Positions 5,809 to 39,944 of a DNA stretch of 64,000 nucleotides are shown piece after piece (the stretch's first letter is position 1; each line of letters starts with the position of its first letter). The translations under genes were made by a program, and so were the position numbers. This DNA is from Odiellus spinosus (lineage: Eukaryota; Arthropoda; Arachnida; Opiliones; Phalangiidae). Under the pieces are notes generated by a model. That model saw only the letters and a list, made by a program, of their open reading frames with translations, was not told where the DNA came from and searched no databases. The stretch is from assembly GCA_963920705.1 (NCBI GenBank), contig OY987236.1, forward strand, positions 4,946,190-5,010,189, written 5' to 3'.

Positions 5809-5854
5809 GTGTATTTTTACAGGGGGTGTAAATACACCCCCTGTAAAAATACAC
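5809..5854. repeat. Palindromic inversion point of the satellite
   Basis: Perfect 22-bp arms (5809–5830 and 5833–5854) flank an AA spacer. To the left every unit is G-rich on +; to the right every unit is C-rich on +. Beyond the 22-bp arms symmetry continues at unit level but not exactly, because the right side starts with a TACC-variant block absent from the left. It is therefore not a simple foldback of one sequence onto itself. Confidence 0.95.
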
Positions 5855-7340: not shown

Positions 7341-7440
7341 AAAAAGACACCCCCTGTAAAAAGACACCCCCTGTAAAAAGACACCCCCTGTAAAAAGACA
7401 CCCCCTGTAAAAAGACACCCCCTGTAAAAAGGCACCCCCT
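7341..7440 (-). repeat. Block of GACACC-variant units
   Basis: Five consecutive units with AAAAAGACACCCCC and a sixth with AAAAAGGCACCCCC replace the standard AAAAATACACCCCC. This is another local expansion of a single variant. Confidence 0.85.
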
Positions 7441-15150: not shown

Positions 15151-16411
15151 CCCCTTTTTGTAAAAAAAAAATAAATAATAAATACACCCCCTGAAAAAAA
15201 AATATTAAATACACCCCCTGTAAAAAAATAAATAAAAAATACACCCCCTGTAAAAAAAAATAATAAATACACCCCCTGTAAAAACAAATAATAAATACAC
15301 CCCTGTAAAAACAAATAAATAATAAATACACCCCCTGTAAAAATACACCCATTGTAAAAATACACCCCCTGTAAAAATACACCCCCTGTAAAAATACACC
15401 CCCTTTAAAAATATACCCCCTGTAAAAACACACCCCCTGTAAAAACACACCCCCTGTAAAAATACACCCCCTGTAAAAATATACCCCCTGTAAAAATACA
15501 CCCCCTTTAAAAATATACCCCCTGTAAAAACACACCCCCTGTAAAAATACACCCCCTGTAAAAATATACCCCCTGTAAAAATACACCCCCTGTAAAAATA
15601 CACCCCCCTGTAAAAATACACCCACCTGTAAAAATACACCCCCTGTAAAAATACACCCCCTGTAAAAATATACCCCCTGTAAAAATATACCCCCTGTAAA
15701 AATACACCCCCTGTAAAAATACACCCCCTGTAAAAATATACCCCCTGTAAAAATACACCCCCTGTAAAAATACACCCCCTGTAAAATAAAACACCCCTTT
15801 TTTGAAAATAAAACACCCTCTTTTGAAAAAAACATTTTTTTTTAAAAAAACACCTTTTTTTGAAAATAAAACACCCCTTTTTTGAAAATAAAACACCCCA
15901 TTTTTGAAAATAAAACACCCCTTTTTTGAAAATAAAACACCCCTTTTTTGAAAATAAAACAACCATTTTTTGAAAGTAAAACACCCCTTTTTTGAAAATA
16001 AAACACCCCTTTTTTGATAATAAAACACCCCTTTTTTCGAAAGAAAAACACCCCTTTTTTTGAAAGTAAAACACCCCTTTTTTTGAAAATAATACACCCC
16101 TTTTCTTGAAAGTAAAACACCCCTTTTTTTGAAAATAAAACACCCCTTTTTTTGAAAATAAAACACCCCTTTTTTGAAAGTAAAACACCCCTTTTTGAAA
16201 ATAAAACACCCCTTTTTGAAAATAAAACACCCCTTTTTTGAAAATAAAACACCCCTTTTTGAAAATAAAACACCCCTTTTTGAAAATAAAACACCCCTTT
16301 TTTGAAAATAAAACACCCCTTTTTTGAAAATAAAACACCCCTTTTTTGAAAATAAAACATCCCTTTTTTGAAAATAAAACACCCCTTTTTTGAAAATAAA
16401 ACACCCCTTTT
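15151..16411 (-). repeat. Partial third composite satellite segment
   Basis: The order is A/T hybrids (15156–15335), 17-mers (about 15336–15784) and 22-mers (15785–16411), similar to but not colinear with the two 2.27-kb copies. The 17-to-22 junction at about 15784 (TGTAAAATAAAACACCCC) and the following GAAAAAAACATTT variant resemble the junction at about 9066, suggesting a common origin for those two boundaries. Confidence 0.85.
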
Positions 16412-17015
16412 TAGAAAATAAAACACCCCATGAAAATAAAACACCGCATGAAAATAAAACACCGCATGAAAATAAAACACCGCTTGAAAATAAAACACCG
16501 CTTGAAAATAAAATACTTCTTGAAAATAAAATACCCCTTGAAAAGAAAACACGCCTGGAAAATAAAATACTTCTTGAAAATAAAATACCCCTTGAAAAGA
16601 AAACACGCCTGGAAAATAAAACACGTTCTGAAAATAAAACACTCTTTTAAATTAACACTCTTTGAAAATATAACACCCTTTGAAAATAAAACACCCTTTG
16701 AAAATAAAACACCCTTTGAAAATAAAACACCCTTTGAAAATAAAACACCCTTTGAAAATAAAACACCCTTTGAAAATAAAACACCCTTTGAAAATAAAAC
16801 ACCCTTTGAAAATAAAACACCCTTTGAAAATAAAACACCCTTTGAAAATAAAACATGGTTTGAAAACACACTTTGAAAATAAAACAAGCTTTGAACATAA
16901 AACAAGCTTTAAAAATAAAACACGCCTTGAAAATAAAAGACCCTTTGAAAATAAAACACCCTTTGAAAATAAAGCACGCTTTGAAAACAAAACACTTTTT
17001 GAAAATAAAACACGA
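16412..17015 (-). repeat. Degenerate 18-bp edge of the satellite
   Basis: Units shorten to 18 bp and diversify: ACACCGCATGAAAATAAA, ACACCGCTTGAAAATAAA, ATACTTCTTGAAAATAAA, then about eleven clean ACACCCTTTGAAAATAAA copies (about 16672–16855). Increasingly diverged copies follow to about 17015. The GAAAATAAA half matches the 22-mer. Decay toward unique DNA is typical of an array boundary. Confidence 0.93.
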
Positions 17016-17432
17016 TTTAAATTTGGCGCCTTTATAAATAGTTGCTAGAATGACCGCATTTTACGCTGGCGTTATTCATAGTATATACACGATCCGTGTC
17101 TGAATAATCTGATGTGGGCCAGTGGGCGACACTGGGCGCGCATTTTCACAAACAACAGACGTGATTTTACACTGCCCAAAGTGCCGACCGGATAAACCTA
17201 GGAATATAATACTCGTCACTTGTGCCCCTTCATGCTCTTAGGATAAACTGAGCCTTTACAAGCAAGGGAAATTCTTGACTTTCTGGTTCAAAACTTCAAA
17301 TAGGGAAGTTTAATTTTCCAGATCTGGCATCCTGGCGCGTTGTTTTTTTTAAAAAAAAAAAAAACCCTAGCTAATTAACGGTTTCTTAGTTAATCATCTT
17401 ACCTAAAGCTTGTGGGCTTTTGTCCCTGAAAA
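17016..17432. other. Spacer between satellite and Dim1 gene
   Basis: About 417 bp of unique, less AT-rich sequence must contain the Dim1 promoter and 5' UTR unless an upstream exon lies beyond the array. I see no convincing TATA box. An interrupted T/A run (about 17341–17364) lies shortly upstream of the start codon. Confidence 0.5.
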
Positions 17433-17861
17433 ATGTCCTTTTTACTTCAACATCTTCACAACGGTTGGCAAGTGGACCAAGCCATTCTTTCTGAAGAAGA
17501 CCGTGTCGTAGTTATTCGTTTTGGCCACGACTGGGATCCAACCTGTATGAAGATGGACGAAGTTTTATACAGTATAGCTGAAAAAGTGAAAAATTTTGCG
17601 GTAGTTTATTTGGTGGACATTACGGAAGTGCCGGATTTCAATAAGATGTACGAGTTGTACGATCCGTGCACGTGTATGTTCTTTTTCCGCAATAAACACA
17701 TTATGATTGATCTCGGTACCGGGAATAATAATAAAATAAACTGGGCTTTGGAAGATAAACAAGAAATGATAGATATACTCGAGACGGTCTATAGAGGCGC
17801 TCGTAAAGGCAGAGGTTTAGTTGTTTCTCCCAAAGACTACTCTACCAAGTACAGATATTAA
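17433..17861 (+). CDS. Dim1: Dim1/TXNL4A U5 snRNP thioredoxin-fold protein
   Basis: Complete 142-aa frame, the usual family length, differing from animal orthologues at only a few positions. It begins MSFLLQHLHNGWQVDQAILS and ends SPKDYSTKYRY. The family (human TXNL4A, yeast Dib1) is a component of the U5 and U4/U6.U5 snRNP required for pre-mRNA splicing in the nucleus; it has a thioredoxin fold without the catalytic CxxC. Conserved Cys38 and Cys79 are present. Residue 81, normally Val in the orthologues I recall, is Cys here, giving a C-T-C at 79–81. The gene has no intron in its coding region. A variant poly(A) signal ATTAAA lies at 17903–17908. The intact, strongly conserved frame argues for a working gene; a recent retrocopy cannot be excluded from this window alone. 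Confidence 0.97.
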   Translation: MSFLLQHLHNGWQVDQAILSEEDRVVVIRFGHDWDPTCMKMDEVLYSIAEKVKNFAVVYLVDITEVPDFNKMYELYDPCTCMFFFRNKHIMIDLGTGNNNKINWALEDKQEMIDILETVYRGARKGRGLVVSPKDYSTKYRY

Positions 17862-21209: not shown

Positions 21210-21320
21210 TTATACTTCCGTATGTTGGAACTCTAGTTCTAGTTCGCTATCGCTTGTTGAACTCGAACATTCGGAGGACGGTGGAGTTTCGAGTACCGGG
21301 ATATTTAATTCCAAGTAATC
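21210..21320 (-). CDS. FGFR: FGFR C-terminal tail exon with PLC-gamma docking tyrosine
   Basis: A 37-codon terminal exon after acceptor CTCACTAG|GATTAC, in phase 0 with the preceding kinase exon (…[12 protein letters not shown]). YLEL matches the conserved FGFR tail tyrosine motif (YLDL) that binds PLC-gamma. The rest is Ser/Glu-rich ([19 protein letters not shown]) and ends in TAA at 21210–21212. It is separated from the last kinase exon by a 1.4-kb intron holding a hAT-like MITE. Confidence 0.87.
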   Translation of the reverse strand, partial: DYLELNIPVLETPPSSECSSSTSDSELELEFQHTEV

Positions 21321-24300
21321 CTAGTGAGAATAAAATTGTTTTTATAAATAAAAAGACCTAATTAAATACACTAAAACTTCGTTACAACAAAATTCTGCAG
21401 GTAAAGGAATAATTTTATAGTTGCTAAGCCTTGGCTTTGCAGCAGGCAGAGTCATAGGTCCAGCTTGGAAATAAGGCACTAGTCACGGCATTTGACTACT
21501 AAAATAAATGTTCTGACTACTAAAATTAATAGAAACCAGGGGGATAACTAGTCAATTTGACTAGTAAAACATTTACCTAAATTTTAATATTTATCAAACC
21601 AAAAAAGGGGAAAAACGAGATTATAGGTGAATGGGAAAAGCTTAAATTCAGTCCTCACCAATACGACTTACGAGATGGGTAAAGCATAATATTAATACGG
21701 TCTTTCCTTCTTGTTTCATACCCTTATGTTTCTTTCCTTCTTGTTTCATACCCTTATGTTTACCCCTAGTAGTCAGTGACTACTAAAATAAATTAAGAAA
21801 GGGGCTCACTAGTCAGTCTACTAAATAAAATATCCTTATTGCCAAGCCTGCATAGGTCTAGACAATAACTCCAAAATTATAAAAGCCGGTGTGCGCTCCT
21901 CAAGCAGGAGGGGATTTTACATTGTATCACATGCCTATTAATTCACTCGTAAGTTACAAACGAGGATAGTTTTAGCGTTAAGCTAATGACTGGCCAATCT
22001 CGGGACTCAAATCCACCTAGTGGTGGTAGCTTGAAACTCTCACAATGCGTGCTAGGACATCCATTTCCTTGTCAAAAGGAATGAGGTGGGGTAGGGAGAA
22101 TTAACTAGGTTTTTCTTCGAGGTGGAGTAGGGCTTCAAATTTCTATCTCTCTCACGTATAGTGCTGAATACGAAGGGCTCTATGGGGAACTCAAACTTAC
22201 GAGTGAAGAATTAGGCTTATGGTTGTATAGGATTGATAATTTTTCTAAAAAGGTAGCAGCATTAGGCCCTGAATGCCTCCTGAATTATAATACATGTATA
22301 CAAGACGAATTGCGCTTATTAAATCAATACATCGTGTAGTTTAAATAAAACTTAAGTGTACTAAATCTCACTTTAAATTAGAACTGACAAAAAGAGTGGT
22401 CTCAAAGAACTCAGAGTCCTACGCCTTGAACCAATCAAGCTTGTAATGTTCGTCTGACTAACTGACATTTAAAAGTTCTAGTGTATATCTCCTATGTCGG
22501 GTTGCAACAGCATAATCGGGCAGGGGCAAGGGCTTTGATAATACTCTAGGAGTTGGTCTAGATCACTGATTTTAATGCAATTGATAAGATTTCGCCATTA
22601 CGAGAGTTGATCTGCTAAAACAAGCACCCTGCCAATTGCTCTTATGGCCACATACATAATGCTAAAACGATGTATTCTCAAAATAATATATAATTAGAAA
22701 AATGAATTACTTGGTCGGATGTTATCGTCAGAATCCGGTCAAGATCTTCGACGAGTTCGGTAAAAGTTGGACGATTAACAGGATTATCTTTCCAGCATTC
22801 TCTCATAATAAAATAGCTTGGTTTCGCAAAAAATTACATTTAGTATAAATTAAATTTTTGTTCTTAAAATATAAAATAAGAATGATTAAAACTTACATTT
22901 CCAACGGACAATTTTGCGGCTTCTCCATGCGATGACCTTGCTGCAACAGAGGCAATAATTTCTCGTGAGGAATCGATGGATAGGGTGAACCTCCAAGAGT
23001 CATTATTTCCCATAATAAAATGCCGTATGACCAGCTACAAATATTTAAATATGAGGGTGATTTTAAATGATGTGGTATGATGTTACAAATCAATATTATA
23101 TAGATATAAGTAATCGACAAAAACTTACACGTCACTTTTGGAAGTGGACATACTGTTGAACAGAGCTTCAGGAGCCAACCATTTCACTGGTAATCGTCCT
23201 TTAGATTTCTTCTTATAATAATCCGAATTATTTATATCTTTGGCCATTCCAAAATCGGCAATCTTCATGACTTTGTCTTCGGTAACCAAAATGTTCCTAG
23301 CCGCAAGATCTCTGTGGATACACTGCAGAAACGTTAAATATTAAAATAAATCATACTTTCTGGAAAAAACATAAGTACGCGAAATTTAAAGAAGGAAGCA
23401 TGGTCATATTTTACTCACTCTTTTCGAAGCTAGATATTCCATTCCTCGAGCGACCTGATACGCAAATGAAACTAGGTTCTTGTGCGTCAAGGTTTTAGGT
23501 TTTAAATCCATTCCAATGGCTTGTTCATAACCCGAACTCTGACGATGAGCCCTCAAAAAGTCCCTTAAGTTTCCATTTGGCGCGTATTCCACAATTACGT
23601 ACAACGGACCTTAAACAAATAATATTTGGAGTTATTGTCAGTGTGAACCAGAAATTTGACTTCGAAACCATTAGGGAGTAGGAGTGGAAATAAGGATTTT
23701 AATTCTTATCAAACAATTTTAAAATTATCTGCCATTTTGAAAATATATAGAACATCAGAGCCCCGTATAGTTCTGTATCAGATAAAGGGGGAATCCTGAA
23801 TAGTTCATTCCCAGATTTAATACCAAGCCGAGAATAGTCAAATTTCTACCATTTTTAAAATGAAATAAATTTGAACAAAATCTTGGATGAAACAAGAGCA
23901 ACTTACCATCTTGGGTACAACAACCGAGTAAGTTTATGATGTTGACGTGTTTTCCGATTTTCTTCATAACCTCCATCTCCGAAACCAAATCAGTCATTTC
24001 TTGATCAATATGTCCATCCTTCAGCATTTTAACAGCAACAACGGATGGACCTTCGACCCCATTAAGACCGTAAGCTTCTCCTTTTATGACTTGACCGAAA
24101 GCGCCGTAGCCTAAAGGCTTCCCGAGCACCAATCTTTTTATTGAAGGAAAAAAATTTAATACTGGTACTTGTAAAGTCCCTCATCATGTTCTGTTACTTG
24201 TCTCTCGGAAATTCCCAAACTGGATCCAATGGCATCTCATACTCGGATAAAGGTACAACGTCCGAGAAGTAGGGAGACCTTTCAAAATCAATTTTGACCA

Positions 24301-27300
24301 ACGGAGCGATTGAACCGTGCGAATGCAAATCGGAATCTTGACGCTCCAGAATAATTTTCTTACGAATTATGATGGTGTGGGTGGTGGGTGGTTGTTGTTT
24401 AGGTTTGGGCCGACAATATCGGCAAATGACAGCGGAAATTATAGTAACGAGGAATAGGAATCCTGCACCACTCAGAACCATCCATACCCAAACTGGGACA
24501 CCCAGTTCCATTTCTTCAGAAGGTTCGGGCCAATTAATAACAGACAGGTAGACGGTTTTGTAAGATTCACCGATACTATTTTCAGCGAAACAAGTATACC
24601 ATCCTTCATCTTCGAGAGTCATATTTTCCAAAACCAGTAAATGAGGATCCGTTACGTTTGGCGCGTCACTCTGATTAAGAAGAAGAGTTTAATTAAAGGT
24701 TAATAATTGTATATTTAAGGTTTGTCTTCCCCTACACTTGAAAATTTCCTTACTGGGTTAGAGGCAATAATAAAATTAACAATAGTTTGGGGAGGAGGGT
24801 TTGGTGCAAAATGAGTAAAAACACTCACCACGATCGGTAGGATATTTGGGAAACCTTTAGAGTCGTAAAATGAATCATTGCTTTTAAAGTGTTTTAGCCA
24901 TCGAACTCTAGGCTGAAGATCACTGATAAACCGACATTCAAAATAAGCAGTTTCCCCAACATGAACCGTCAAATTGGTGGGATAGCCATCTCGAATTATC
25001 GGTGGATGCGAAATACGTTCTGATATTTGAAAAGATTAATTTAAGGCATTTGGAATTATAAACTTCTTACACGTACCTTGAACTTCGAGAGTGAATGTAT
25101 AATTAATGCTGCCCTCGCTATTACTGACAATACAGGTATAATTTCCAGCGTCACCAGTCGTAACCATATCCATTTTCATTACCCATTTGTTATAAGTTAT
25201 CTAAAATACGTGTACTTATTTACTTTTAATTTCACAGTTGAACCCATAAAAGTCCATTTTGATCTTATCAAAACAGCTAAAAAAAGGTTTCAATGTCCCT
25301 TTTATAAAAATCCGAGACTCAAATGGAGTATTCGAGAATTGACTCGATGCTTAATAATAAAGTTTAAGAGTCGAATCACAAAAATTAGTATTAACACACC
25401 AAGATCACATAGAAACCATATTTAAATATTACTTAAAAGTAAACAAGTCTAATAATTTCAAAGTAGGCTTAAGGTTAATACACGTAAAATTGTGGTTTAA
25501 AGTAGGTATACGTACGTTTCGGTTGTATTTTCTTTTTGGTGGCAGAGTTCCTTTTAACCAGGTAATTTTTGGAACTGGAAAACCCTCGGCTTGGCATTTT
25601 AGAGTGACATCTGAGCCTGCTGGACTAACTACAAGTTGTGGTCTCGGTTCGGGAGCAAAATATGGGGCATCTGCGCATCGAAGACATACATGAAGTTTAA
25701 ACATAAAATGACAGTTCACAATAAAAACAAGTTGGCTAAGACCTAATATTTACATTTTTCACCAGGAGTATGATTTCTGTGTTGAGGAGTCTCTCTGCCT
25801 TCTAGATTTTCAGCTGAAGGCCCATCTTTTTGTTCAACCTGGTCTGAAATTTTTTTATAAAATAAAGTAATAATTTTTTTAAAAGTTCTCGATATAAACA
25901 AGAAAGGATAGAATTAGTTACACTTGGAATTTTTAGAATGATTTTAGAAACAGGGATGGATACTTTTGTAGTACAAGCTGATGTGATGATAGATTAAAGA
26001 ATAAAATGTCTAAAATAAAAAACGTAAGCGGAAAAAAATATACGCAGAATTTGTCTAAACCTAGTTATTTTTTGTTAAGCCTTGGCCACTACGAGCCGTT
26101 ATAATTCGAGGTTCTGGGAGGGAAAGATGTCATAATCAGAAAGTTATTGATGATCGAGGTCATTAAATAACTTTTTATAAAGTTTTTAATAGAAATCTCG
26201 CCTTAACCATGGGTCGCTGAGCCATCAATGCAGAGAAATTCAGGATCAACATGTATCCAGCTAAGCCTATTTTCAAGGGAAGTTTTAAAATGGTTTCTAC
26301 TTTCTAGTTTAATATTTGTTTGCAATTTTTTTTTACTCGTGGATCAGGCCTATTTAAATGATAAAAAAAAAAATCACTTAATATGATGCATTCTCCCTTT
26401 AAGAATTCCCGATGTAACTTTTATCCTTTCTTGATATAATGATAAAAACTGAAAACACAATCTTAGTGCTAAATTCAAAAGGAAACTTACCGACAAGAAC
26501 GGTGAAATTTCTCCAAACAAAACGCAAATCATTGTACGCTTTGCAAGCGTATTTTCCAGACTGATTAGACTTGATTTTTCGAATGATCAATTTTGCTCCC
26601 GATAATTTTATACTATTATCATTGTTTGAAACTTGTTCATTCTCGTGGTACCATAAGATGTAGGGTTTTGGTTGACTGTCAGCTTTGCAATTCAGTGTCA
26701 ACTTTTGACCTTCTTTTACGATGTAGACCACTAACTCGGGAGTAGCTACAAAATAAATATTAAATGGTTTTATATTCCTATATAACACCACCGTAGGGGA
26801 TTTAAATTTTTTTTAATCACCTCGATTGTGAGGTTTCAATAATGATACGACGGACAAGTAAACGGTAGCATGCACTTCTTGTCTATTTGCAACAAAACAC
26901 GTATACCATCCTTCATCTTCCATGGTTATATTTTCCAAAATCAGTAAATTCGGATCCGTTACGTTTGGCACGTTGCTCTGATTGGGAAGGAATAAATGGT
27001 TGTCAATTCATTATTGTGTATTTTAAATTTATCTTCTTGATACCCAAAATTATCCTTTCTGAGTTAGCGGCAATAATAGAATAAACTTTAATTTAGAAGG
27101 AGCTAGAGTTGGATGTTTAAACAATGAACAACACTCGCCACTATAGGCAAGGTATTCGGAAGACCTTTCGAGTCATAAAAGGTTTGGTGCAAAATCAGTA
27201 AAAACACTCACCACAATTGGTAGGATATTTGGGAAACCTTTAGAGTCGTAAAATGAATCATTGCTTTTAAAGTGTTTTAGCCATCGTACTCTAGGCTGAA

Positions 27301-30300
27301 GAACACTGATAAAGCGACATTCAAAATGAGCAGTTTCCCCAACATGAACTGTCAAATTGGTGGGATATCCATCTTGAATTTTCGGTGGATGCGGAATCCG
27401 TTCTGATATTTGACAAAATTAATTTTATTCGCTACATTCGAAATTAAAACATTCGTCTTACACGTACCTTGAACTTCGAGACGGAATGTATAATTAACGC
27501 TGCCTTCGCTATTACTGACAATACACGTGTAATTCCCAGAATCATCTGTCTTAACCAAATCCATTTTCATCATCCATTTGTGGTAAGTTATCTAGAATAA
27601 AAGTGTACTCTTAGATAGATAGAATCTTTATCTTCCAAACAAAACCAATATTTATATTTAAAACTAAAATCAGTAATATAAATAGGTCAAAGGATGCTTA
27701 AAGCAACTGGCGGCTCTGGAAGAACCCCTGTGAAAGTCTCTTCCATGACGCACGACAAATATGCCTCGTGCCTATGGGACCCACAGACGCTTATAAATCA
27801 CTACCTCCTGCCTTTGGTAAATTAATTGTGTAGCAGAAAAACGGGCATTTAGGAGATACTTTAGAGCTGCCAGTTGCTTTAAAGGCCTTATCTGCACGGA
27901 AACTTCCCCCTTTAAAATGCTCTTCCCTTACGCACGCAGCATAAGCTAGAAAAGAAGGAGACTTTAAAGGGGATTTGAAAATCACAGATAGTCCCTTTAA
28001 AGGCTCCATCTATTTTAGAAATTGCAAAATTGATTTTCTAAAGCCTAGCCTAGCTTTGCCCGCACAATTCGCTACAGCAGGAATTCATAGATAGAGGAAT
28101 ATTGCATAGTCTTCGGTGAGTTTGCAGCCTAATCCAACAACACCTATGCGAGAGGGGTAGTAAAGATTAGAAGGGTCTTATATTCCTCGCAAGTGTTTTA
28201 AACTAACACTAAAGGATAAATTTTTGGCAGCATAGAGGCAGGACAGCCACCAAGCTCCTGCATGATTCCAGCAGTCCGCCAAACGTTTACTCTCGGGTCT
28301 ACTGCAAAGGTTTTTATTCTTAACCTAAATAATCAATATTATAAAATATTATAAAATTAAATTCGATTTGCTTATGATCGAAAATATATTTAATTGGGTC
28401 AAAATAAAGCTCTAAGCTTATTTAATGGTTGGGAAAATATTTAAATAGAGCTCTATGTTTACGAATATAAACTCTGTAGTGTACGAATTAGTCCCGTCTT
28501 GATCAAGAATTTCTCCAGAAGCCTGATGGGAAACCAGTCGCCTCCCAATCTTTTTTTGTTATCCTGTCAGTGAGATCACCAATACGTAAACTTAAAGTTT
28601 TGATAGACTTTGAGGGATGGGGCTCTGAATGTAATTTACTATGAGTCTGAATACAGTAACAGCAATATGTCCAATACTCATTTTATATATTTGAATTCCT
28701 ACTGTCAATATCATCAGTTGAGAAAAGACAGGGACTTTAAACTTAAAAAGGATTTCATATTACAGAGTTCGTTTAATGTAACCTGACATAAAATTTAGGT
28801 TATAAGGACACAAGTTGAGGCTGCAGATCCAGTTTGAAAACGTTACAGGAAGCTTGATTAAGCCTTTTTTTTTCCTCATTTTGGCCATCGTGACTTTTTT
28901 GAACTGATGTTCGCAGTCTAAGCTTGTGTCCCTTTAAAAAACGTTTACATACCTTTTGGTTGGAATTTCTCTTTGGTGGTAGATTTCCTTTCAACCAAGT
29001 AATGTTTGGTTCTGGATAACCCTTGGCTTGACATTTTAGAATGACCTCTGAATCGGCTGGTCTCACTATAAGCTGTGGACTGGGTTTAGGAGAAAAATAT
29101 GGGGCATCTGTGCGCCAAACAAAGTTTATTTCAATATTTTCCAAATAAAAAAATTGCCAACCAATAGAAACGAGTTGATTAAAGCAACTGGCGACTCTAG
29201 AGTAGCTCCTATATCAGGCTGGGAAATAAGGCGGTTTTACTGGACAAAAGTCCAGTTTAAAAATTAGCTGGGCCAGTTTAAAAATTAAATGCTTGGGGGT
29301 CTACTGGCCACAAGGCCAGTTAATTAATTCCAAAATTTTGTTTTGTTTCTTAGCCTAGGTCATAGTACTATGTCATAATGACAGTTTGTCAATCTCATGA
29401 AAATTGTAACTGGCCAATGTCCAGTTTTTTAATTAAACTGCTTGGACTCTACTGGCCACAAGTCCAGTTTAAAAATAATCCTTATTTCCCAGCCTGTCCT
29501 ATATGCCCACTTTTCTGCTACTGCTAGTCTGCTACACAATTTACCTTACCAAGTTGGTAAGAAGTAGGGCTGGGCGAGTACTCGATTGATTCGAGTAACT
29601 CGATCGACCTCATTTTACTACTCGTGACGAGTATCGAGTATTGGTTTTACTACTCGACAAACTACTCGATAAGCATTCGCGGAACCCATTAGAAACTCGG
29701 CAAGGCTAGTAAATAGAAATTAATATCGAATTCGTACACAAAGGAAATAAAAACGCTCCCTGCAGAGATACAAAAGTCTAGAGAGGGGTTGTCATGTAGC
29801 ACAGTTATATTTTTTTGTAAAAATTGATGGTGCGGACGACGCGATAGAGGCTATTTGAAAATAGCGCCTCTATAGCGTCGTCTGCTCCATCAATTTTTAC
29901 TAAAAATTATAACTGCCACCTGACAACCCCTCTCTAGACTTTTGTATCTCTCCAGGCGGCGAAATGGAATTTCTTGGCGGGATAGGACCTGCCTGGAGTC
30001 CTGGACCCTGCAAGCGTTTTAGTTTTAGTTTGGATTTCTGTCTTCTGAAGTTTTAATACAAAGCCTGCAGGCAATGGAGCTTATATTCTTTTGGATTTTT
30101 ACTTTTGGGTCGTAAGGTGGGAAACTGGAACTTTCTTTGCAAGCACTGATTTATTATTTCTACATGAAAATCTAAACAGTGAAATTTTCTTACTTTTGTT
30201 CTGACTGATCTCTACTTCATGTAATGTGATATAACACAAAACAGTTGTAAAAGTTTAAAATATGATTTTCTTTATATTGTTATTGTTAATGTGGAATGGT

Positions 30301-31459
30301 TAAACCTAAGCTCACTCCTTAATTAGTTAATACTTGCGAGTAGTAGGCTTAAATACTCGCGAGTACTCGAGTGCATGAAAATTAACCAAGGCCCAACTAC
30401 TCGATACTCGACCCAATATTTAATACTCGACTCGGTACTCGACAACGAAAATTTTTGGTACTCGATACTCGACTCGGTACCCTAAAAGTACTACTCGCCC
30501 AGCCCTAGTAAGAAGGGAGGGATTTATAAGTTTATGTGGCTCCCATTGGCTCCTGCCTTTTACAAGGCCATAAGGGCCAAGGCATATTTGGGGTGCATCA
30601 GGGAAGAGACTTTAACAGGGGCTGCTCCAGGGCCGTCACCCACAAGTAACCAGTTGCTTTAAAGCCGCATACTTACAATTTTTCTCAGCAGGCTGTGGGA
30701 TCTCTTCTAGATTTTCAACTGAAGGTCCATCTTTCCGATCAACCTCGTCTGGAAAGGAGAGAAAAAAAAAGAAAATTATAAACAAGATAAAGATTAAATA
30801 AAAATGTGACCAGCCCGTGGGGGTAGATGTCTAAAAAAGTGGTCGAGTGTAGGAGGCCACAGGAAACTGCTTATTGACAATGTCTCTCTCAATTGAAACA
30901 CTTATTGTTTCAATCCCTTGAATAAAAAACAAACCATCCCTATAACTAAAAGAAGGGGCATTGATTTTTAGCACCAGTACAAAATCACTCCTACCATATA
31001 GATTTATAAACAACGACCCAAATAGTTTATAGTAGCGTGATAAAAGACAAAAGATAAGACAAAGACTATCCATAGTTCGCCTTCAAAACATCACTTAACC
31101 ACTTCTGGAAATAACGGTAGTGTTTTTGGGGTCCTCCCATGGTAAAAATATATTCTCAGTGGCTAACTTCAAAGGAAACCTACCGACAAGAACAGTGAAA
31201 TTTCTCCAAACAAAGCCGAAATCATTGAATGCTTTGCAAGCGTATTTTCCAGACTCATTAGACTTGATTTTACGAATGATCAATTTTGTTCCTGATGATT
31301 TTATCCTATTATCGTTGTTGGAAACTTGTTCGTTTTCGTTGAACCATAAGATGTCAGGTTTGGGCTCACTGTCAGCTTCGCAACTCAGGTTCAACATTTC
31401 ACCACTATGCACAGTGATGAACCTCGTTGACTGGCCATCGTCCACAAACGTTGGAGCAG
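21210..31459 (-). CDS. FGFR: FGF receptor tyrosine kinase with duplicated ectodomain (5' end missing)
   Basis: Eighteen exons with consistent phases: 31184–31459, 30677–30748, 28953–29107, 27468–27591, 27212–27402, 26821–26977, 26491–26745, 25754–25843, 25516–25670, 25077–25200, 24829–25019, 24198–24670, 23907–24133, 23419–23609, 23129–23322, 22897–23034, 22711–22816, 21210–21320. They give a 1,076-aa partial protein: Ig1, linker, Ig2, Ig3, then Ig1, linker, Ig2, Ig3 again, a transmembrane helix (~655–680), a kinase (~755–1030) and a tail. The family binds FGF with heparan sulfate at the cell surface and signals by autophosphorylation. Intron positions and Ig3 sequence ([18 protein letters not shown]) are FGFR-like. 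Known insect receptors have two (heartless) or five (breathless) Ig domains; six would be unusual. The signal-peptide exon is not in this span. An alternative is two overlapping transcripts, one a soluble receptor. Confidence 0.9.
21461..21850. mobile_element. hAT-like MITE in FGFR intron
   Basis: A 390-bp element flanked by an 8-bp duplication, CATAGGTC (21453–21460 and 21851–21858). The ends are imperfect inverted repeats, CAGCTTGGAAATAAGG and CCTTATTGCCAAGCCTG, resembling the element at 29215–29496. Internal ACTAGTCA/TTGACTAGT repeats and a tandem 30-bp duplication (21701–21760) are present. There is no transposase. Confidence 0.85.
21701..21760 (+). repeat. Perfect 2 x 30-bp tandem duplication
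   Basis: Two identical adjacent 30-bp units (beginning TCTTTCCTTCTTGTTTCATA) inside the MITE at 21461–21850. Confidence 0.95.
22711..24133 (-). CDS. FGFR: FGFR intracellular kinase exons
   Basis: Five exons carry a complete tyrosine-kinase core. The glycine loop is GYGAFGQV (usually GEGCFGQV in FGFRs), the ATP lysine lies in VAVKML, the catalytic loop is HRDLAARN, and the metal-binding motif is DFGMAKD. The activation loop has tandem tyrosines in [20 protein letters not shown], and the C-lobe has [19 protein letters not shown] and MRECW with RPTF. A kinase insert ([18 protein letters not shown]) is of FGFR length. The exons join in phases 2, 1, 0, 2, 2, 0. Nothing suggests a dead kinase. Confidence 0.96.
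24198..26745 (-). CDS. FGFR: FGFR ectodomain copy 2 and transmembrane exon
   Basis: Exon order, phases and several sizes match copy 1: Ig2 halves are 155 and 124 nt and the first Ig3 half is 191 nt in both copies. Ig1 is 26491–26745, the linker 25754–25843 (30 codons against 24, less acidic), Ig2 25516–25670 plus 25077–25200, and Ig3 24829–25019 plus 24198–24670. The last exon continues through [13 protein letters not shown] into a hydrophobic helix ([20 protein letters not shown]), then RYCR stop-transfer residues and a juxtamembrane region ending WEFPRDK. The first Ig3 halves of the two copies are identical at 59 of 64 residues, while Ig1 is more diverged. Confidence 0.9.
26185..26398. mobile_element. 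Right part of a TTAA-type MITE (AGGGAGAATG family)
   Basis: Lies in the intron between the second FGFR Ig1 and linker exons. It carries the family's internal CAGCTAAGCCTATTTTC segment, CAGGCCTATTTAAA, and the terminus GATGCATTCTCCCT followed by TTAA at 26399–26402. The left terminus is not recognisable, so the copy is truncated. It matches the right part of the copy at 59210–59745. Confidence 0.7.
26821..31459 (-). CDS. FGFR: FGFR ectodomain copy 1 (Ig1–linker–Ig2–Ig3)
   Basis: Six exons. Ig1 (31184–31459) has paired Cys in LSCEAD and KYACKAF. The acidic-leaning linker (30677–30748) reads [16 protein letters not shown] and corresponds to the FGFR acid-box region. Ig2 is split over 28953–29107 ([10 protein letters not shown]) and 27468–27591 ([14 protein letters not shown]). 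Ig3 is split over 27212–27402 ([16 protein letters not shown]) and 26821–26977 ([14 protein letters not shown]). The last exon does not run into a transmembrane segment as copy 2 does: it ends LLKPHNR at GAG|GTGATT in phase 1, exactly the phase needed to splice into the second Ig1 at 26745. Confidence 0.88.
27139..27180 (-). pseudogene. Relic of an FGFR Ig3 exon 3' end
   Basis: On the minus strand this 42-bp stretch reads [14 protein letters not shown], then a mutated donor (GCGAGT instead of GTGAGT). It matches the end of the intact Ig3 exon at 27212–27402 ([14 protein letters not shown]). It lies 31 bp downstream of that exon's donor and those 31 bp match the start of the copy 2 intron. It looks like the stump of the native exon left after the intact exon was copied in from ectodomain copy 2. 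Confidence 0.75.
27702..27878. mobile_element. TTAA-flanked MITE (AGCAACTGGC family), copy 1
   Basis: A 177-bp element bounded by TTAA (27698–27701 and 27879–27882) with termini AGCAACTGGC and GCCAGTTGCT. It lies in the intron between the two Ig2 exons of ectodomain copy 1. Its interior matches, in inverse orientation, the interior of the element at 29183–30658. Confidence 0.8.
29215..29496. mobile_element. hAT-like MITE nested in TTAA MITE
   Basis: A 282-bp element with perfect 17-bp terminal inverted repeats (CAGGCTGGGAAATAAGG) and an exact 8-bp target duplication, TCCTATAT (29207–29214 and 29497–29504). The interior has repeated CTGGCCA and GTCCAGTTT motifs in both orientations. No coding capacity. 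Confidence 0.93.
29565..30507. mobile_element. hAT-like non-autonomous element nested in TTAA MITE
   Basis: A 943-bp element with ends TAGGGCTGGGCGAGTA and TACTCGCCCAGCCCTA and an exact 8-bp duplication, GTAAGAAG (29557–29564 and 30508–30515). Subterminal ACTCGA-type motifs are dense at both ends, as expected for transposase-binding arrays. The interior contains a separate foldback element (29759–29956) and no transposase frame. Confidence 0.93.
29759..29956. mobile_element. Foldback element inside the hAT-like element
   Basis: About 198 bp with 36-bp terminal inverted repeats differing at one base (start CCTGCAGAGATACAAAAGTC). Symmetry continues inward through TAAAAATTGATGG…CCATCAATTTTTA and GCGATAGAGGC…GCCTCTATAGC. 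A target duplication was not resolved. Confidence 0.8.
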
Positions 31460-31696
31460 CTATACCAAATAAATTGAAACATTTACATTTGAATCACTCA
31501 AATCATCCAACATTAATAATTTGAAGTACACCACTTTGGGATTGCCTGAATATTGATATTGATTGAGGAACTAAAATAGGAGACACTCGGAATTCTTACA
31601 GATAATATTGTAATTATTTTGGCATGACATCGAGCTTGAATATGGGAAGTGATATGTTGATATAAAAGTCTGACCAACTTCAATGACATGGGACCC

Positions 31697-31728
<32 letters not shown>

Positions 31729-34700
31729 ATTTACGAATGAGTATTGAAATGTCTACATTTTTATTTCTTAAAGTCTGTACTGAAGCATTTTCGTAAAAAG
31801 AAAACAAAGGTTTTATCTTTCGGATTGTATTTCTGTAATGTTTATTTTGGATTCAGACCAGACTCTAGAGAAGATAGAAGAAAAGTGTTGGATTATGACG
31901 TCCCAGGTCGTCCCTCAGGTTATAGCTCCCAACACATTTCTAGGAGTACCGCGACCCCGAGGGAAGAAGAGTTTCTAGCCATTTAGTTTTGAATTCTCGA
32001 AAGAAAAAATTTTTTTACGCCGCTGTGAGTATGAAAAAAAGGTGCTAAAAATATTGTCACCCTGGTTTTTTTTTCTAAACGCGGTAGAAAAATGTTTTGG
32101 AAATGGGCCTAGACTTTTTTATGCTAGTTTTTTCTCAAATGGTATAGTCTCACCGTCTCACGCATAGTGCGGTACGCATTTTTACGAACCTACGTCTCAT
32201 TATAATTATAATATCAGAAGGGAAAGATATATCATTTTCTAGCCCCCTTTGACAACTCCCAGTTTTACCCAAGAGAAGGTATAGGATGCAGGGGGGGGGG
32301 GCAGTCACTCAGCGTAATCGGTGTACAGCCTTTAACTTAGACTGTACTAAAGGGATTACGCGTGAACTTTATAATACCTCTCTATGACAGTGCTAAAATG
32401 ATTACACGTAATAAGATTAGGGAATCCGAGAGAGATTCGCCCCTCGATAGGAAGAGACATCTCTAAATTCCATAGATATTTGAACGATCTTTCAGAAATA
32501 CTACTCAATTTCCATTTGAGGTTCATTTAAATTCCGTGACAGCCTCACTTTAAAATTTAATTTATTTTTCAGGAGTGAGGCTTTCTCTTTATCACGATGC
32601 CCACCCTGGCTTAAAATACATCTTTCAGTCGTCTTACGAGTCGTTAAACTTAGTCCGTCTTTTCTTTTGAAAGTTGTTAACGGATTTACCACGGAGTTTA
32701 TAATCAAATAGGCTTAGCAACATCAGTTTTAACCTAGACAAACTGACATCGGGGTACGTGATGGCTACGCTCTGTTTAACGTACGTTAACTAACCGACTT
32801 GGCAACCTATTACGCTTCTTAACCCTCGCGAAATTGATGCCAATGATTGTGATCTCAATTTATCCCGCACCAAATTATACTAAAGTTCTATCTATCTCTA
32901 CTCTAACAACCTTAATTTTGTTGAGCTTCTCTCAATCTCTCTGCTGATAATTCGTAACGGCGGTTTTGATTTTAATATTAACTTATTAAGGGTTAATACG
33001 CGAATAACTTCCCGATTTTACCAAGTAAAAAAAGTCTTGGAAAAAAATTTAAATCCAACGAGTTCTCGAATCCCGGGAAAAAGGGTTGAAGTTTATTTTT
33101 AGAATGAGTTTAAAATTATCTATTTTAACTCGACGGGTCGACGTGGCTCTCTGGTCTAGGGAAAAAAGGAATGAGAAATTTAGACAGGGCAATTTTTGAC
33201 TACGGATTTATGTTATGTTTATAAATTAAAAATAGCGAATTTTCTAGTAAAGGGAAGATGAAATTGATACATTTTTTAATAATTAAGGCAGAACCTTTTT
33301 CCTAACTACCCCTTGAAAATTATCTTTAAAGTTTTAGAGATATTCCTCAAAGGAAGGGAGGTTATATTCCCTTTAAAGAAACATCTAAGGCTAATTTTTT
33401 TAACCTAATTATGAAATCAATTGGTTCGAATTATTGTAGGTTCCGAACCAACAGGCCCTCCAAGTTTATGTTTAGTTACACTCGGGAGTCTAAATAATAT
33501 TTGAAATATACCACCTAGGGCGACGATAAAAATGTTAATTTGATATCTGCTGTTTTTTTATACCACGTGTGTTTCTCTAGTGTTTTTTTTTTTTTTGGAT
33601 TTTTCAATTACAAATTCCGAAAGTCAATATCCAGGAGTAGAGGAAGTTTAAGTCACCCGCGGTGAGAATCTGGCGAAAATACTCTATACTACCTTTTATA
33701 ATAAAAATAAGAATGTCTTACTGATAACAAGAAGTTACGAACAACACCTAGAAAGACTTTAAATGCAATAAACGCGTACAGGATAGCAAACATTTGATAT
33801 TAAATATTAAATAAGTAATCCTACATAAAGTTATTAGATTATATGGTTGTAAACGTCATATAATTGACTCACATTTGAAGATTACACCCCTACGAGTTAC
33901 CGAAGACTCGCCATGATTGGCTATAGGTCCTATTATCCTATATTTTATGACATTTTTTTTTTTTTTTTTTTTTTCAAATATTTATCGAGCATAAATTTTA
34001 AATTTACTTCTACCGAAAAATATCATTGGTTAATTTTTAGTTTCTTAAACCAGCAGCCAATCAAAACCTGGCCGAATATTGCTTAAAAGGGAAGCTAAGG
34101 TACAGGAGTAACGCTAATTAGCCTATTAAGTTACTTATCACTCGTCATTACCAATTTTTATTTAATATTGCACTTTAGGATAATTTCGTTGATTTAAAAT
34201 CAAATGTTTCTGACCATATCTTCTGAAATTCAAGGTGTGGGCCTGCAGCTACTTCCGGGAAGTTAGGGTCTTTTTGATGGGGACCATCAAGACTTGTTCC
34301 AAATAGGTTCAAGATGGACGGACCATGGATAGCAAATTGATGAGCCTATCTTTCAAGGGGGCGACAATATTTTGTTCAACCTACTCTCTATCTCTTGAAT
34401 CGTCTTCTTGGGAGGGTGTTACGAATCTTAGCGGGATTTCTTAGTACACGCGTGTGATGCAGATGTCTAATTCTCACCGGAAGCACCCTTTTGAGTTGAT
34501 AGCGTGTGCTAAAAGCTACGCTACCATTATATCAAATAATCCACCAATACAAGTCTAAAATGAAACCTAGGTTTGAACTCATTATCAACTAAAATTGATT
34601 CAAACTGTTCATTTTGAATTTCGCCAATATCGAGCAACACTCGCGAAGCTAGACTTAGGTTATATTCTAACTATTAACAATTAATAGCGATACCTGGAAC

Positions 34701-34822
34701 GCTAGGCTCGAAACGAACTGTCAAATGAAGTTGAAAACTATTTCAGGTTTTCATAAATGGGGAATTTTTAGTCACTGAATCATTAAAACGTGGAAATACT
34801 TAAACAATCCCCCGTTAATATA

Positions 34823-34867
<45 letters not shown>

Positions 34868-36838
34868 AGCAGGTTTTCTCTTTAGAATTTTGAAAGACAA
34901 AAATTACAGCTATTTTGAGCTGTTTTAATTTTAAGAGTGACGTCACTACCATATTTCAGTGTATAAAATTGGTGATTAAATATTAGTATTGTACATTTCT
35001 CGTTAATTTAACCTGCACTTAAGACACGATTTAAGCACGTTAAGCCTAACAATTGCGTTTAAAAATTAGCGCGCGCGTTTTGTTTCAGTTGCAGTTCATT
35101 ATCCCTTTAAATAAAACCTCTGAACAATGCTTTTCAATGTTAATATAGATTATCCACAAATTTTTTTTAAAAACCTCGTGATATATAAAAGATATTAATC
35201 AAAGTTGAAGAAATGATAAGAAAAAACTTAAAACGGATATTCCAACCCTAAAATTCACAAAATTCATGTTTTTTTAAATAAAAACTGAAGCCAAATCTTT
35301 ACAAACCTAACCTAGAATAAGAAAATGGGACCATTCTTCAAATTTTCGGATATAAAGAACGCGTTATTCCTTAAAATTTTCCTTAACTTTCTAAACAATC
35401 ATCTTTTATATATTTAAAATATAATGGGAGTTCCTTCATAGTTTTTTTTTTTTTAGGAATATGGCCGCTAGGTCCACACGTGCGAGTTTCCAAAGAATTG
35501 AACTCTCAACAATATAATTTCTTTCTAGTAGGCGAGTCTAGTGGGATTACAAGTATACTAGAATGAAGTTCCACTCTGAAAGACATTTAAAGTGACCCTG
35601 TCACATTTTTTAATTAGACCTATATTAAATCATTTTAGTTTTTTCATACTATTAATAACCCATATAAACTAAATCACCCAAAAAAAAGGAGAATTTAAGT
35701 TTTCTAAATTAGTAAAAGTCCTTTGCGATAGTGGGCTAAAGGCCCTCGAAATTAATAATTAATATAGTAGTAAATGTTTCTGGAAAGTGATTGAGGGTAA
35801 ATTTCGAATGAAAGGTGCGACGAAAGTGACCGCTTGAAAAGCTTAACCGCATCATGATTCAAAATGCGCTAGATTTAACTGTGGATTAAATAATAGCCAC
35901 GTGACCATAGTGTTGATGTAGTCTAATTTTTGTTTTCGAGGTTGCGACAATCTTTTGAATCATTCTTTACCGATCTTTCTAAAAATGCTACTCAAATTAA
36001 ATTTGGAATTGGTGAAAAATCTGTGACAACATCACTTTCATGATAAAAAAAAAATGGCAAAAAATATAATATCAGACAAAAAAAGCTTGGGCCGTCTACG
36101 CGTGGGATTATGTTTGTAAAACTACTTTTATCTCCTATTACGATTAATATTAAGTGTTCTTCCGCGTCAGTATTCGATATACAGAGCTTGTGATCAAAGT
36201 TTAGGACTCATGTGGGTAGAGTTTTTATTATAAGAATTATTATTCTTATAAATCTAGTCTGTGGTCACATTCAGTTCAAGTTTGAAGTACTCGCAAAGCC
36301 ATGTTCTATTTATTTAGTATTTAATGTGGAATTTAGTTCGAGAGGGAAGCTTGGTTTTGTACGCGCTTAGAACTCAAAACTGATCAGAGTTCGACGACGC
36401 TTTTCCAGACTACTTTTTGTCCTGATCATATTTTAAATTGTGTATTAATCCGCCCCTACTTAAGTTTGTTACGCAAACTATTTGAGAATATTATGAGAAT
36501 AAGTTTATGTAGGGCCCATCACCACGAGGGATCTCTAAAAGAGATTCCTAATGAATTGTCCGACATTCAAAATTTCAAAGGGATGTCAGACTATGGGATT
36601 TTTTTTTTTATTTATTTTTTTTTTTCATTTTTTGGATGAATATAACTTACCGCCTACATTTTATTTACCAAGTTTTTTACCGATATTAATATTCCTCGTG
36701 ATGTCTACGGATTTGTTAGTAAATTTTTCTTACAGAACTCTAGTTTCTATTACAGGTGTATTTGTAGAAATAATAGCTAAGCCTAATCTGTACCCATTGA
36801 TGAATTTTGAAAGACTATATACTTAATCATAATAATTT
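31460..36838. other. Non-coding stretch upstream of visible FGFR exons
   Basis: Mostly AT-rich sequence without coding signal apart from the possible exon at 31857–31986. It contains homopolymers: A31 at 31698–31728, T22 at 33953–33974, A41 at 34824–34864, and a G run near 32290. I found no convincing FGFR signal-peptide exon here. Confidence 0.5.
31857..31986 (+). CDS. Possible terminal exon of an unidentified + strand gene
   Basis: After a good acceptor (TTTTGGATTCAG|ACC) a phase-2 frame gives 43 codons ending in TAG at 31984–31986, with the look of a polar cytoplasmic tail: DSREDRRKVLDYDVPGR, then Ser/Thr-rich sequence and EEEFLAI. Codon use and GC content rise relative to the flanks exactly between acceptor and stop. 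I do not recognise the protein and see no upstream partner exon. A fragment of a degraded gene, or chance, remains possible. Confidence 0.3.
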
Positions 36839-37232
36839 ATGGACTGAATAAAATGGCCTAAATTAATGTATGGACGGGATAAAACGGTCAAAATTAATTT
36901 ATGGACGGGATAAAACGGTCAAAATTAATTTATGGACGGGATAAAACGGCCAAAATTAATTTATGGACGGGATAAAACGGCCAAAATTAATTTATGGACG
37001 GGATAAAACGGTCAAAATTAATTTATGGACGGGATAAAACGGTCAAAATTACTTTATGGACGGGATAAAACGGTCAAAATTAATTTATGGACGGGATTAA
37101 ACGGCCAAAATTAATTTATAGACGGGATTAAACGGTCAAAACTAATTTATGGACGGGATAAAACGGTCAAAATTAATTTATGGACGAGATAAAACGGTCA
37201 AAATTAATTTATGGACGGGATAAAACGGTCGA
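36839..37232 (+). repeat. 31-bp minisatellite (~12.7 copies)
   Basis: Tandem 31-bp unit containing TTTATGGACGGGATAAAACG then GTCAAAATTAA, with a diverged first copy and scattered single-base changes (CGGCC for CGGTC, GGATTAAA for GGATAAAA). It is unrelated in sequence to the satellite at the left of the window. Confidence 0.95.
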
Positions 37233-37239
37233 AAAATGT

Positions 37240-39944
37240 TTTGAAATAACCAAAATCTAAAAAATATACCCAATTAACGTTTTTGTGAGAACAGGACCGA
37301 GATTTGTCGAACTTTTGGAAATATATGGAAATCTTAATTTTAATTATTCACCGCGAATTGATTTAAAATATAATTTAAGCATAATCTTACATAATCAAGG
37401 ACTGAGGAGATGGGAAAGAAATCAAAAGCGCCGAAATACTAGAATGGAGTACGGGAAAATAAATTATCAACGGCTTAGAAATAAATACCGCCCTGAATTT
37501 CAGTTTCAAAAGCAATTAATTTCAGAAAAAGAGCGCTTTTGTTGGGAAGATTTAGTGCTAATATTTTATACTCCAAATAGAATCTTTGAAGTTTAATTTC
37601 GAAACTCAACAAATAAGGTTTTTTTTCCCATGAGAATTTTTTTTTTTAATAATATCATAAGTTCATCATCTCTAATCGTTACAAAGTTGTCTTATTCGTT
37701 AATTAAAACAACGATTTCTTCCAAGATAAGAAAAAGGATGAATGATTTTAATACCCAAGATTTTCGAGGAACGAGTGGTCCTAGGTTTAAAATATTTACA
37801 TCTCTATCAAGGCTGCAAATATGACCTTAAATAAAGCTTAGATTTCTTACGAGAATTGAATATCTTGTTGGATTGCCACAAACATTAGTATATTATATCA
37901 ACAAATGACGCCTACCTTAGTATATAACGATTAATAAAAAAACCTGGTGTTCATAAGCGTCCTCTCACGGCAAACAGTCCGGGTAAAATAATAAACTAAT
38001 CAAACCACGAGTGCGTCTCCTTATTCTCCATCCATAGCAGAAACTTCACGAGGTTTTGTTAGTTACCGCATTTGCCAATGTTTGCCGTTAGAGGACGTTA
38101 ATGGATACCAGGTTTTATTATTCATCTTTATCTGTTAAGATAATTTTAAGAATTAAGTATCATGATTAAAAATATATAAAGTTACTAAAGATTCATCTGA
38201 TTTTTTATATTTTAAAGTAATATTGGGCAAAATTCGAAATCTGTATCAGTCTCCATAACTCTTATTACATAAAATAATTTAAGACACTTTTCCTTGAAAA
38301 ACGAAAACGTCCATTCGTTAAGCCTAATGTCCGTCGGCATATTTCAAAAAGATCTTTTCAATTTACTGTTTTTCAAAGTTATATCTTGAAAATAACATTC
38401 AACCCTCGCCATTTGAAAAAAAAAAGTCTGGACAATTCATTTCAACTATGAAGTCTGGAATTATTATAAAATTTTTTGTTACGCTTTAGAAAATTACGTC
38501 ACGTGGTTTGAAGGAAAAAAATAATTAAAATGGATAACCTCTAAGACATCCTAATGAGTTCTCGAGCTACAAAGAAAGCACGCGTTTGCATTCTCTTGCC
38601 TTTTTCATACAAATAATAGGGCGGCCATAATCATGGATTAATTAAAGGGAATATGAAACTAAAAGAAAATATATATTTAGTTTTAAATAACATTTTCATT
38701 TTACGTCCAATATCTTAGACATCATTTTAATTTTATATCATAGTAAAAATATTTTATTTTCCCTTTTCGAGTGTGTTGATTCTTAATTTGTACAGTGGTT
38801 TTGTCTGAGCAAGTATAGACGTGGACATGAAGGCGGAATAATTACTAATGTATTGTTGCCTAATTACCCCAGCGCGTGTTTCTAAGAGTCAAGAAAAGAA
38901 CTCCTCTTGATGATGGCATTTCCAGAAAAGGACCGCTTATAAAATTTATATGAAACTCGGGTTTTTATCCGCACTTTTGTTTAAAAAAAAATAATTATGG
39001 AATTAGAGAAAACTCAAGAGAGCTCTCGACGTAATTTAAACTCGTTTTTCTAAATTACAAACATGTAAACAGAACAATACGGGTGTTTTAAAATTGAAAT
39101 TATATAGGGTGTTAACACAATCTTCGAATTAATACAGCCAAAGGCAGGGTACTACCGATTTCTTAGAAGATAGGAGTATTCGAATGAGGAAGTGCTAAAA
39201 ACAGATTCACGCATTCCATGGTGTTAATGATGTTTAAAACAAATTATAATAATATTTTAAATTTTGGTTGACTTTAGGTTATTTAATCAGGTCTATTTGG
39301 TTGAATTATGTTAGAATTTTCAAATTCAGATCATTGATTTTTCCCGCTTAATCTTTTGAGCGTAAAAAAAAATCTCAATTTATTTTTGGGATTTTGCTGA
39401 ACAACTCATAAAAAAATTAACTTCACATAAATTTTTCTGTATTCTGGGAATTCGTCTACAGCCTTGAACCAATTTCTTTAAAATCTATCGTTTACCTTAT
39501 CGATATGAAAAGCCAGCTGTCATAGTTCAAATCCTTAGCGCAAATTACGAAGTAATATGTTGAAATAGTATTATTTTCAAGTCTAGCTGCAACCCGCTTG
39601 TGAAATACAGCGACCTTATCAAACTTGACACCCGTTGATTCAAAAAGGAAAAAATGAAGATGCTTTTAGTTAAGAATAGTATTGATTAACTACTAGTAAT
39701 AGTTCGCAAACAATATATTTGATAAACGAATCTAATCGTAGATTAAAACCTTCGGGATTTATATATAAATGGTTCGAGTCTTCTTTTGAGATTAACAACT
39801 CATTAGGCAACTTGAATCAACCTCTTGATAAATTAATAAAATTTAAATAATCCCTGGTTTAATAAAAAGCGAGATTCAAATTCGGAAACTTGACTCTCGA
39901 AGCCACGTCACCTTATTGGTCGGATTGATATCCTTCAACCGAAA
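37240..39944. other. Non-coding stretch upstream of the Mesh-like gene
   Basis: AT-rich DNA; the short open frames (for example 37285–37596) show no family resemblance. It should contain the Mesh-like promoter near its right end. A possible small foldback begins at TTAAAGGGAATATGAAAC (about 38642). Confidence 0.45.

Follow-up and report, generated by a model that had tools for sequence, protein, structure and literature searches.

What does a receptor gene make when its ligand-binding ectodomain is encoded twice and its kinase once? Metazoan FGF receptors (FGFRs) have been described with two to five immunoglobulin (Ig) domains (PMC8224027). The number varies among insects: Drosophila Heartless has two Ig domains, Breathless has five and the lepidopteran receptor has three, and none of the receptors described in that source has six (PMC3320908). 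A search of titles and abstract openings on FGFR Ig number or duplication, with gene-model databases and most subscription papers lying outside its scope, returned no six-Ig FGFR.

The locus described here lies in the arachnid Odiellus spinosus, in a 64,000-nt stretch of contig C14 (C14:4946190-5010189; the window) of a 443-Mb assembly of 286 contigs. A preliminary description of the window had proposed an FGFR gene with its whole ectodomain duplicated in tandem, giving either a six-Ig receptor or alternative transcripts for a soluble ectodomain and a normal receptor. Here, we describe a computational analysis of this gene. We present evidence that both ectodomain copies are open and spliceable in series, that the upstream copy is under constraint, and that an exchange of sequence between the two copies has left a relic within an intron.

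Two ectodomain exon sets precede a single kinase

The gene is on the minus strand, where two sets of six exons, A (31459-26821) and B (26745-24198), each encode Ig1, a linker, Ig2 and Ig3 in that order. Only set B continues into a membrane helix and an FGFR kinase. The exons, with the intron that separates the sets, are as follows:

31184..31459, minus strand: exon A1, entered in phase 1 and coding for Ig1 of set A (exon reading, Pfam)
30677..30748, minus strand: exon A2, Ig1-Ig2 linker of set A (exon reading)
28953..29107, minus strand: 155-nt exon A3, coding for the first half of Ig2 in set A (exon reading, Pfam)
27468..27591, minus strand: 124-nt exon A4, coding for the second half of Ig2 in set A (exon reading)
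27212..27402, minus strand: 191-nt exon A5, coding for the first half of Ig3 in set A (exon reading)
26821..26977, minus strand: 157-nt exon A6, coding for the second half of Ig3, leaving in phase 1 and ending upstream of any membrane helix
26746..26820, minus strand: A-B intron, 75 nt
26491..26745, minus strand: exon B1, Ig1 of set B (exon reading, Pfam)
25754..25843, minus strand: exon B2, linker of set B (exon reading)
25516..25670, minus strand: 155-nt exon B3, coding for the first half of Ig2 in set B (exon reading)
25077..25200, minus strand: 124-nt exon B4, coding for the second half of Ig2 in set B (exon reading)
24829..25019, minus strand: 191-nt exon B5, coding for the first half of Ig3 in set B (exon reading)
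24198..24670, minus strand: exon B6, coding for the second half of Ig3, a membrane helix (recognised by eye) and the juxtamembrane part
23907..24133, minus strand: kinase exon K1 (exon reading, Pfam, PDB)
23419..23609, minus strand: kinase exon K2 (exon reading, Pfam, PDB)
23129..23322, minus strand: kinase exon K3 (exon reading, Pfam, PDB)
22897..23034, minus strand: kinase exon K4 (exon reading, Pfam, PDB)
22711..22816, minus strand: kinase exon K5 (exon reading, Pfam, PDB)
21210..21320, minus strand: last coding exon K6, stop TAA at 21212-21210 (exon reading)

Direct reading of exons and splice sites confirmed the boundaries at 31459, 26821, 26745 and 24198 that the preliminary description had given, and bore out its account of matching order, matching phases and identical exon lengths (155, 124 and 191 nt). 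AG acceptors and GT donors are present in all 12 ectodomain exons. The paired lengths (A/B) are 276/255, 72/90, 155/155, 124/124, 191/191 and 157/473 nt, B6 being longer than A6 because it also carries the membrane helix. Entry phases are equal in all six exon pairs and exit phases in five, the exception being A6, which exits in phase 1, as required by B1. The sets can thus be spliced together in phase 1, as had been proposed: joined in order, the A, B and kinase exons encode 1,075 residues with no stop.

Each set contains three Pfam I-set matches, and the downstream kinase matches PF07714 (1.4e-98). The best 20 of 217 PDB matches for set A and the best 20 of 224 for set B are all FGFRs, and FGFR1-3 account for all of the best 60 of the 103 kinase matches. 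The gene has the architecture of an FGFR, with an FGFR-like D1-D2-D3 Ig ectodomain, a membrane helix (by eye) and a cytoplasmic kinase. The D1-linker-D2-D3 order of both sets is that of vertebrate FGFR1-3; the difference is that the ectodomain is present twice. The six Ig domains, predicted by counting genomic exons, fall outside the two to five described for FGFRs, a range that describes the known receptors and is not a criterion of homology. Both the single frame across A, B and kinase and the FGFR identity of the best PDB matches of both sets and kinase favour a six-Ig FGFR produced by ordinary splicing, which we consider the probable product. The readings weighed below overlap with this one, so their likelihoods do not sum to one.

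A stop and a possible poly(A) signal overlap the A6 donor

The A6 donor, GAG/GTGATT, ranks 8th of the 17 donors in the gene, and its phase fits B1, which supports splicing of A to B. Counted against the six-Ig reading are an in-frame stop in the A-B intron (26815-26813) and an ATTAAA (26817-26812) that overlaps both this stop and the donor GTGATT and is followed by a GT-rich stretch. Without splicing, the A frame ends at once past A6, as R-G-D-stop (26821-26813). R-G-D is an integrin-binding motif, and its occurrence at the unspliced end of A is probably due to chance.

This overlap could constitute a splice-or-polyadenylate switch, in which a transcript retaining the 75-nt intron would be cleaved after the ATTAAA to yield a secreted three-Ig A protein, whereas a spliced transcript would specify the membrane receptor; donor-bound U1 would compete with the poly(A) machinery on the overlapping ATTAAA. 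Among the 30 AATAAA/ATTAAA sites in 33800-21000, the one at the A6 donor has the highest downstream GT/TG count (5; next 4), a measure chosen after the site was seen, and by plain G+T content one site (10) exceeds it and two others tie with it (9). In vertebrates, some soluble receptor tyrosine kinases (RTKs), such as secreted VEGFR2, arise from U1-controlled intronic poly(A) sites (PMC3826338), a precedent for such a switch; against it, ATTAAA is frequent in A+T-rich DNA and the A6 donor is a good one. We regard the switch as a tentative possibility, and it may coexist with the six-Ig receptor. The preliminary description had suggested looking for poly(A) sites just below 26821, and the ATTAAA with its GT-rich stretch is a candidate there, which may be due to chance. 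No remnant homology of the A-B intron was detected to the sequence before A1 (177 of 500 shuffles as good) or to the part of B6 past the A6 equivalent (439 of 500 shuffles as good).

Candidate leader exons

A scan of the minus strand from A1 up to 64 kb found no convincing leader (signal-peptide) exon upstream of A1. The following two stretches are the candidates of interest:

33748..33793, minus strand: weak leader candidate at chance level, with an ATG, a hydrophobic stretch and a phase-1 exit
30995..31073, minus strand: leader-like candidate in A intron 1, ATG, hydrophobic, phase 1 out

In 31460-39900, where random expectation is 2.5 candidates at loose and 0.4 at strict limits, the scan yielded a single candidate, 33793, which passes the loose and the strict limits alike. 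An equally good candidate occurs in 31.5% of 200 random sequences. Loose-limit candidates below 41.4 kb are 33793 and 40924, the latter within the stretch of the neighbouring gene. Above 41.4 kb there are candidates at 51561 and 50304/50301, to be read with the proviso that the random control covers 31460-39900 only. Inside set A the scan returned 31073, 28009 and 26923, the last being A6 itself.

The leader-like stretch at 31073-30995 scores better than the candidate before A1, and both this and the lack of a convincing leader before A1 count against the six-Ig reading. In principle the stretch could feed A2 or B1, initiating a product that lacks either Ig1 of A or the whole of set A, so that a B-only form is conceivable. 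The two sets might serve as alternative ectodomains, with A1-A5 joined to B6, or a leader (before A1 or in A intron 1) joined to B1, to give three Ig domains per receptor. All phases permit these joints, and 31073-30995 supplies a phase-1 exit. However, the leader-like stretch is possibly a chance occurrence, many exons would have to be skipped, and the A5-B6 form leaves A6 unused, though A6 is open, spliceable and constrained. We find alternative ectodomains doubtful, and the preservation of an exon that is useless to an A5-to-B6 receptor favours the six-Ig reading. Of what the preliminary description offered, the analysis supports the duplication, the matching phases and a potential six-Ig chain, and its option of a soluble form with a normal receptor retains some plausibility from the stop and ATTAAA and from the leader candidate.

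Set A has diverged under constraint

Sets A and B are identical at 235 of 315 aligned residues. Chance likeness is excluded, since a B-ectodomain query of the genome matched five A exons at 60-75% identity (A2 is not among the matches listed), and the best match elsewhere has 29%. Over the 315 codons, dS is 0.42 and dN is 0.14 (Nei-Gojobori), giving a dN/dS of 0.34; for exon 6 alone the ratio is 0.32. These ratios are pairwise A-B averages taken without an outgroup, which do not separate the branches, so that part of the measured constraint may lie on B alone; this counts against the six-Ig reading, as does the divergence of exon 6, the most divergent pair (61% identity). The dS values of exons 1-6 are 0.40, 0.57, 0.41, 0.44, 0.18 and 0.91. 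Introns 1-3, with A/B lengths of 435/647, 1569/83 and 1361/315, are alignable between the sets only at their edges; introns 4 and 5 are still alignable. The length of A intron 2 is due in part to a hairpin-like inverted repeat at 29960-29780, which by eye has the look of a small transposon and is flanked by GAGTA-rich stretches (30500-29600, also by eye).

Set A contains no stop and no frameshift, and all 12 of its splice signals are intact. Within the aligned part, three exon pairs are equal in length, and in the other three every difference is a whole number of codons: 7 in exon 1, a net 6 in exon 2 and 1 inside exon 6. In simulations of neutral drift to 0.21, half the divergence, the open frame was kept in 6 of 4,000 runs starting from A and in 1 of 4,000 starting from B; at 0.10 it was kept in 1.7% (from A) and 1.2% (from B), and at 0.42 no run kept it. 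The lack of stops, the restriction of length changes to whole codons and the dN/dS of 0.34 indicate, at the level of sequence, that set A is maintained. The whole-codon changes and this ratio also favour the six-Ig reading, as does the rarity with which neutral runs keep the frame of set A open.

The second half of Ig3 differs between the two units

The recognition of ligand by D2-D3 in FGFR ectodomains is a textbook case. Columns invariant among FGFR1-3 in PDB chains number 61 in D2, 46 in the first half of D3 and 37 in the second half. Where A and B differ, each set has lost one invariant residue in D2 and two in the first half of D3. The five losses in the second half of D3 are all in A. 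By this comparison neither set is closer to FGFR1-3 in D2 and the first half of D3, and B is closer in the second half. The Glu-Arg at the D2-D3 junction is retained in both sets; the NSIG of the last Ig3 loop is retained in B and absent from A. In FGFR1 numbering, position 282 is Val in A and the conserved Asp in B, position 252 is the conserved Pro in A and Ser in B, and position 248 is Gln in both sets. Positions 165 and 169 are kept in both sets, and several basic residues at putative heparin contacts (163, 175 and 209) are absent from both.

The five invariant residues of the second half of Ig3 that are lost in A and kept in B, with none lost in the reverse direction, together with the divergence of exon 6, could be taken as a sign that set A is a decaying duplicate, left out in splicing. 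This is highly improbable in view of its lack of stops and frameshifts, its 12 intact splice signals and its dN/dS of 0.34; moreover, A and B have lost the same number of invariant residues in D2 (one each) and in the first half of Ig3 (two each), and a neutral frame survives a divergence of 0.21 in at most 0.15% of runs.

Exon 5 of set A carries the probable scar of an exchange with set B

A5 and B5 have 92% protein identity and a dS of 0.18, with synonymous differences at 7 of 43 sites versus about 58 of 157 elsewhere (Fisher p 0.01, the exon having been chosen post hoc). They lie within a block of likeness (27609-27181 in A, 25216-24798 in B; 88%) that spans from just before exon 4, through exon 5, into about 30 nt of intron. 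Past this block, A repeats the exon-5 tail in a second copy that is older and 54 nt long, and from which homology to B continues via intron 5 into exon 6 at 74%:

27127..27180, minus strand: relic of the original A5 tail, within A intron 5 (A/B alignment)

As counted on the alignment, 8 of 14 codons differ between the relic and B5, 6 of them silently. The relic has GC at the donor position, where both A5 and B5 have GT. The simplest history would be that B was copied into A, replacing most of A's own exon 5 and leaving its tail in the intron; A is taken as the recipient because B is continuous at this place. Since the changes in the relic are mostly silent, they suggest that A's own exon 5 was under constraint before its replacement. 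The relic is a clear record of sequence exchange between the repeated exons of one gene. This conversion patch and the apparent single-copy state of the receptor (below) are new with respect to the preliminary description. That description had allowed that the duplication might be an assembly error, an alternative made extremely unlikely by a dS of 0.42 between the sets, by introns 1-3 that differ in length and cannot be aligned past their edges, and by a conversion scar in one set only.

No second FGFR is found in the assembly

A kinase query of the assembly returned 122 matches, 5 in the FGFR gene (89-97% identity) and 117 elsewhere (at most 62%). The B-ectodomain query returned 11 stretches at 60-98% identity, all within the FGFR gene, and 38 matches elsewhere at 24-41% identity, the best of which has 29% (E 7.8e-10). 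By these two queries, at first-look scoring, no second FGFR was found in the 443 Mb, which favours the six-Ig reading, and it is unlikely that one was overlooked. The kinase match elsewhere with the best E-value is on C4 (34% identity).

Six stretches of 9.9 kb, covering some of the 117 kinase matches elsewhere, were read. One locus on C2 (L015, in exon pieces) was considered as a second FGFR and rejected, since its bit scores (VEGFR1 161, PDGFR-alpha 155, FGFR3 148, with an EGFR-labelled entry on top at 180) read as VEGFR/PDGFR-like. By eye, three further loci (L016-L018) resemble it. Of these four loci, C2 carries three, including a pair about 12 kb apart that look very alike, and C1 carries the fourth, with a further C1 kinase match about 80 kb away. 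Two kinase loci on C3 look Src-like. Five FGF-domain matches were grouped as three loci, two adjacent on C14 and one on C15.

Discussion

The six-Ig receptor would have arisen by tandem duplication of the FGFR ectodomain exons, from Ig1 to just upstream of the membrane helix, after which the upstream copy A would have gained a phase-1 donor at its 3' end. The pre-mRNA would be spliced as leader-A1..A6-B1..B6-kinase, the A6-B1 intron presumably being removed in most transcripts. The predicted chain has an outer D1-D2-D3 unit (A), a short linker, an inner D1-D2-D3 unit (B), one membrane helix and one kinase, and thus two potential FGF sites. The inner B unit would be the main FGF-binding unit, and the outer A unit, with its altered second half of Ig3, might bind other or weaker ligands or modulate access.

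A more elaborate proposal, which is speculative and, taken as a whole, unlikely, is that the sole FGFR combines two diverged FGF-binding units in one six-Ig chain, that the overlapping donor and ATTAAA let the altered outer unit also be secreted as an FGF trap, and that the exchange of B over A5 keeps the first halves of Ig3 alike as the second halves diverge in specificity. If this were true, a single gene would stand in for a whole receptor family. A receptor with two complete units in series would provide a natural test of FGFRs as bivalent chains, and of whether specificity can evolve by duplication within a gene, as opposed to gene duplication or IIIb/IIIc-type splicing.

Several known systems share features with this gene. 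In most soluble RTKs a single ectodomain is common to the secreted and membrane forms. The secreted form proposed here would differ in being a separate copy, A. Its likeness to soluble RTKs and soluble FGFR variants lies in a possible secreted ectodomain obtained through the choice of 3' end (PMC3826338, PMC2394287). FGFRL1 has a kinase-free FGFR-like Ig ectodomain, as the putative secreted A form would, and is described as having its own membrane helix and, in insects, two Ig loops (PMC2754479); in the present gene, by contrast, a kinase follows the ectodomain. Arthropod Dscam also contains tandemly duplicated Ig exons, which are used as alternatives (PMC4244043), whereas in this gene the repeat comprises an entire ectodomain, and both copies can be used one after the other.

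Surroundings of the gene

A long satellite occupies 1-17013 of the window. It consists of 17-bp units (GGGTGTATTTTTACAGG), 343 copies at 99% in 1-5830, is inverted from 5830 on and is then continued by 22-bp and 18-bp relatives, with a strong GC skew of opposite sign on either side of the inversion. A three-unit probe gave 12,083 overlapping hits in the assembly, with a similar strand switch on C1. Since the window lies inside contig C14, the satellite is interstitial and does not mark a chromosome end. A DIM1/TXNL4A-like single open frame without introns (17430-17861, plus strand; PF02966 3.5e-70) could be a gene or a retrocopy.

On the other side of the FGFR gene, a divergently oriented neighbour extends on the plus strand from about 39945, its probable first exon by eye, to at least 44165, with NIDO, TIG, AMOP and VWD matches in open reading frames at 41430-44165; it is probably a mesh homologue. 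This neighbour and the presence of TTAGG repeats both suggest an arthropod genome. Between the two genes a 31-bp tandem repeat is present in 13 copies (36833-37235).
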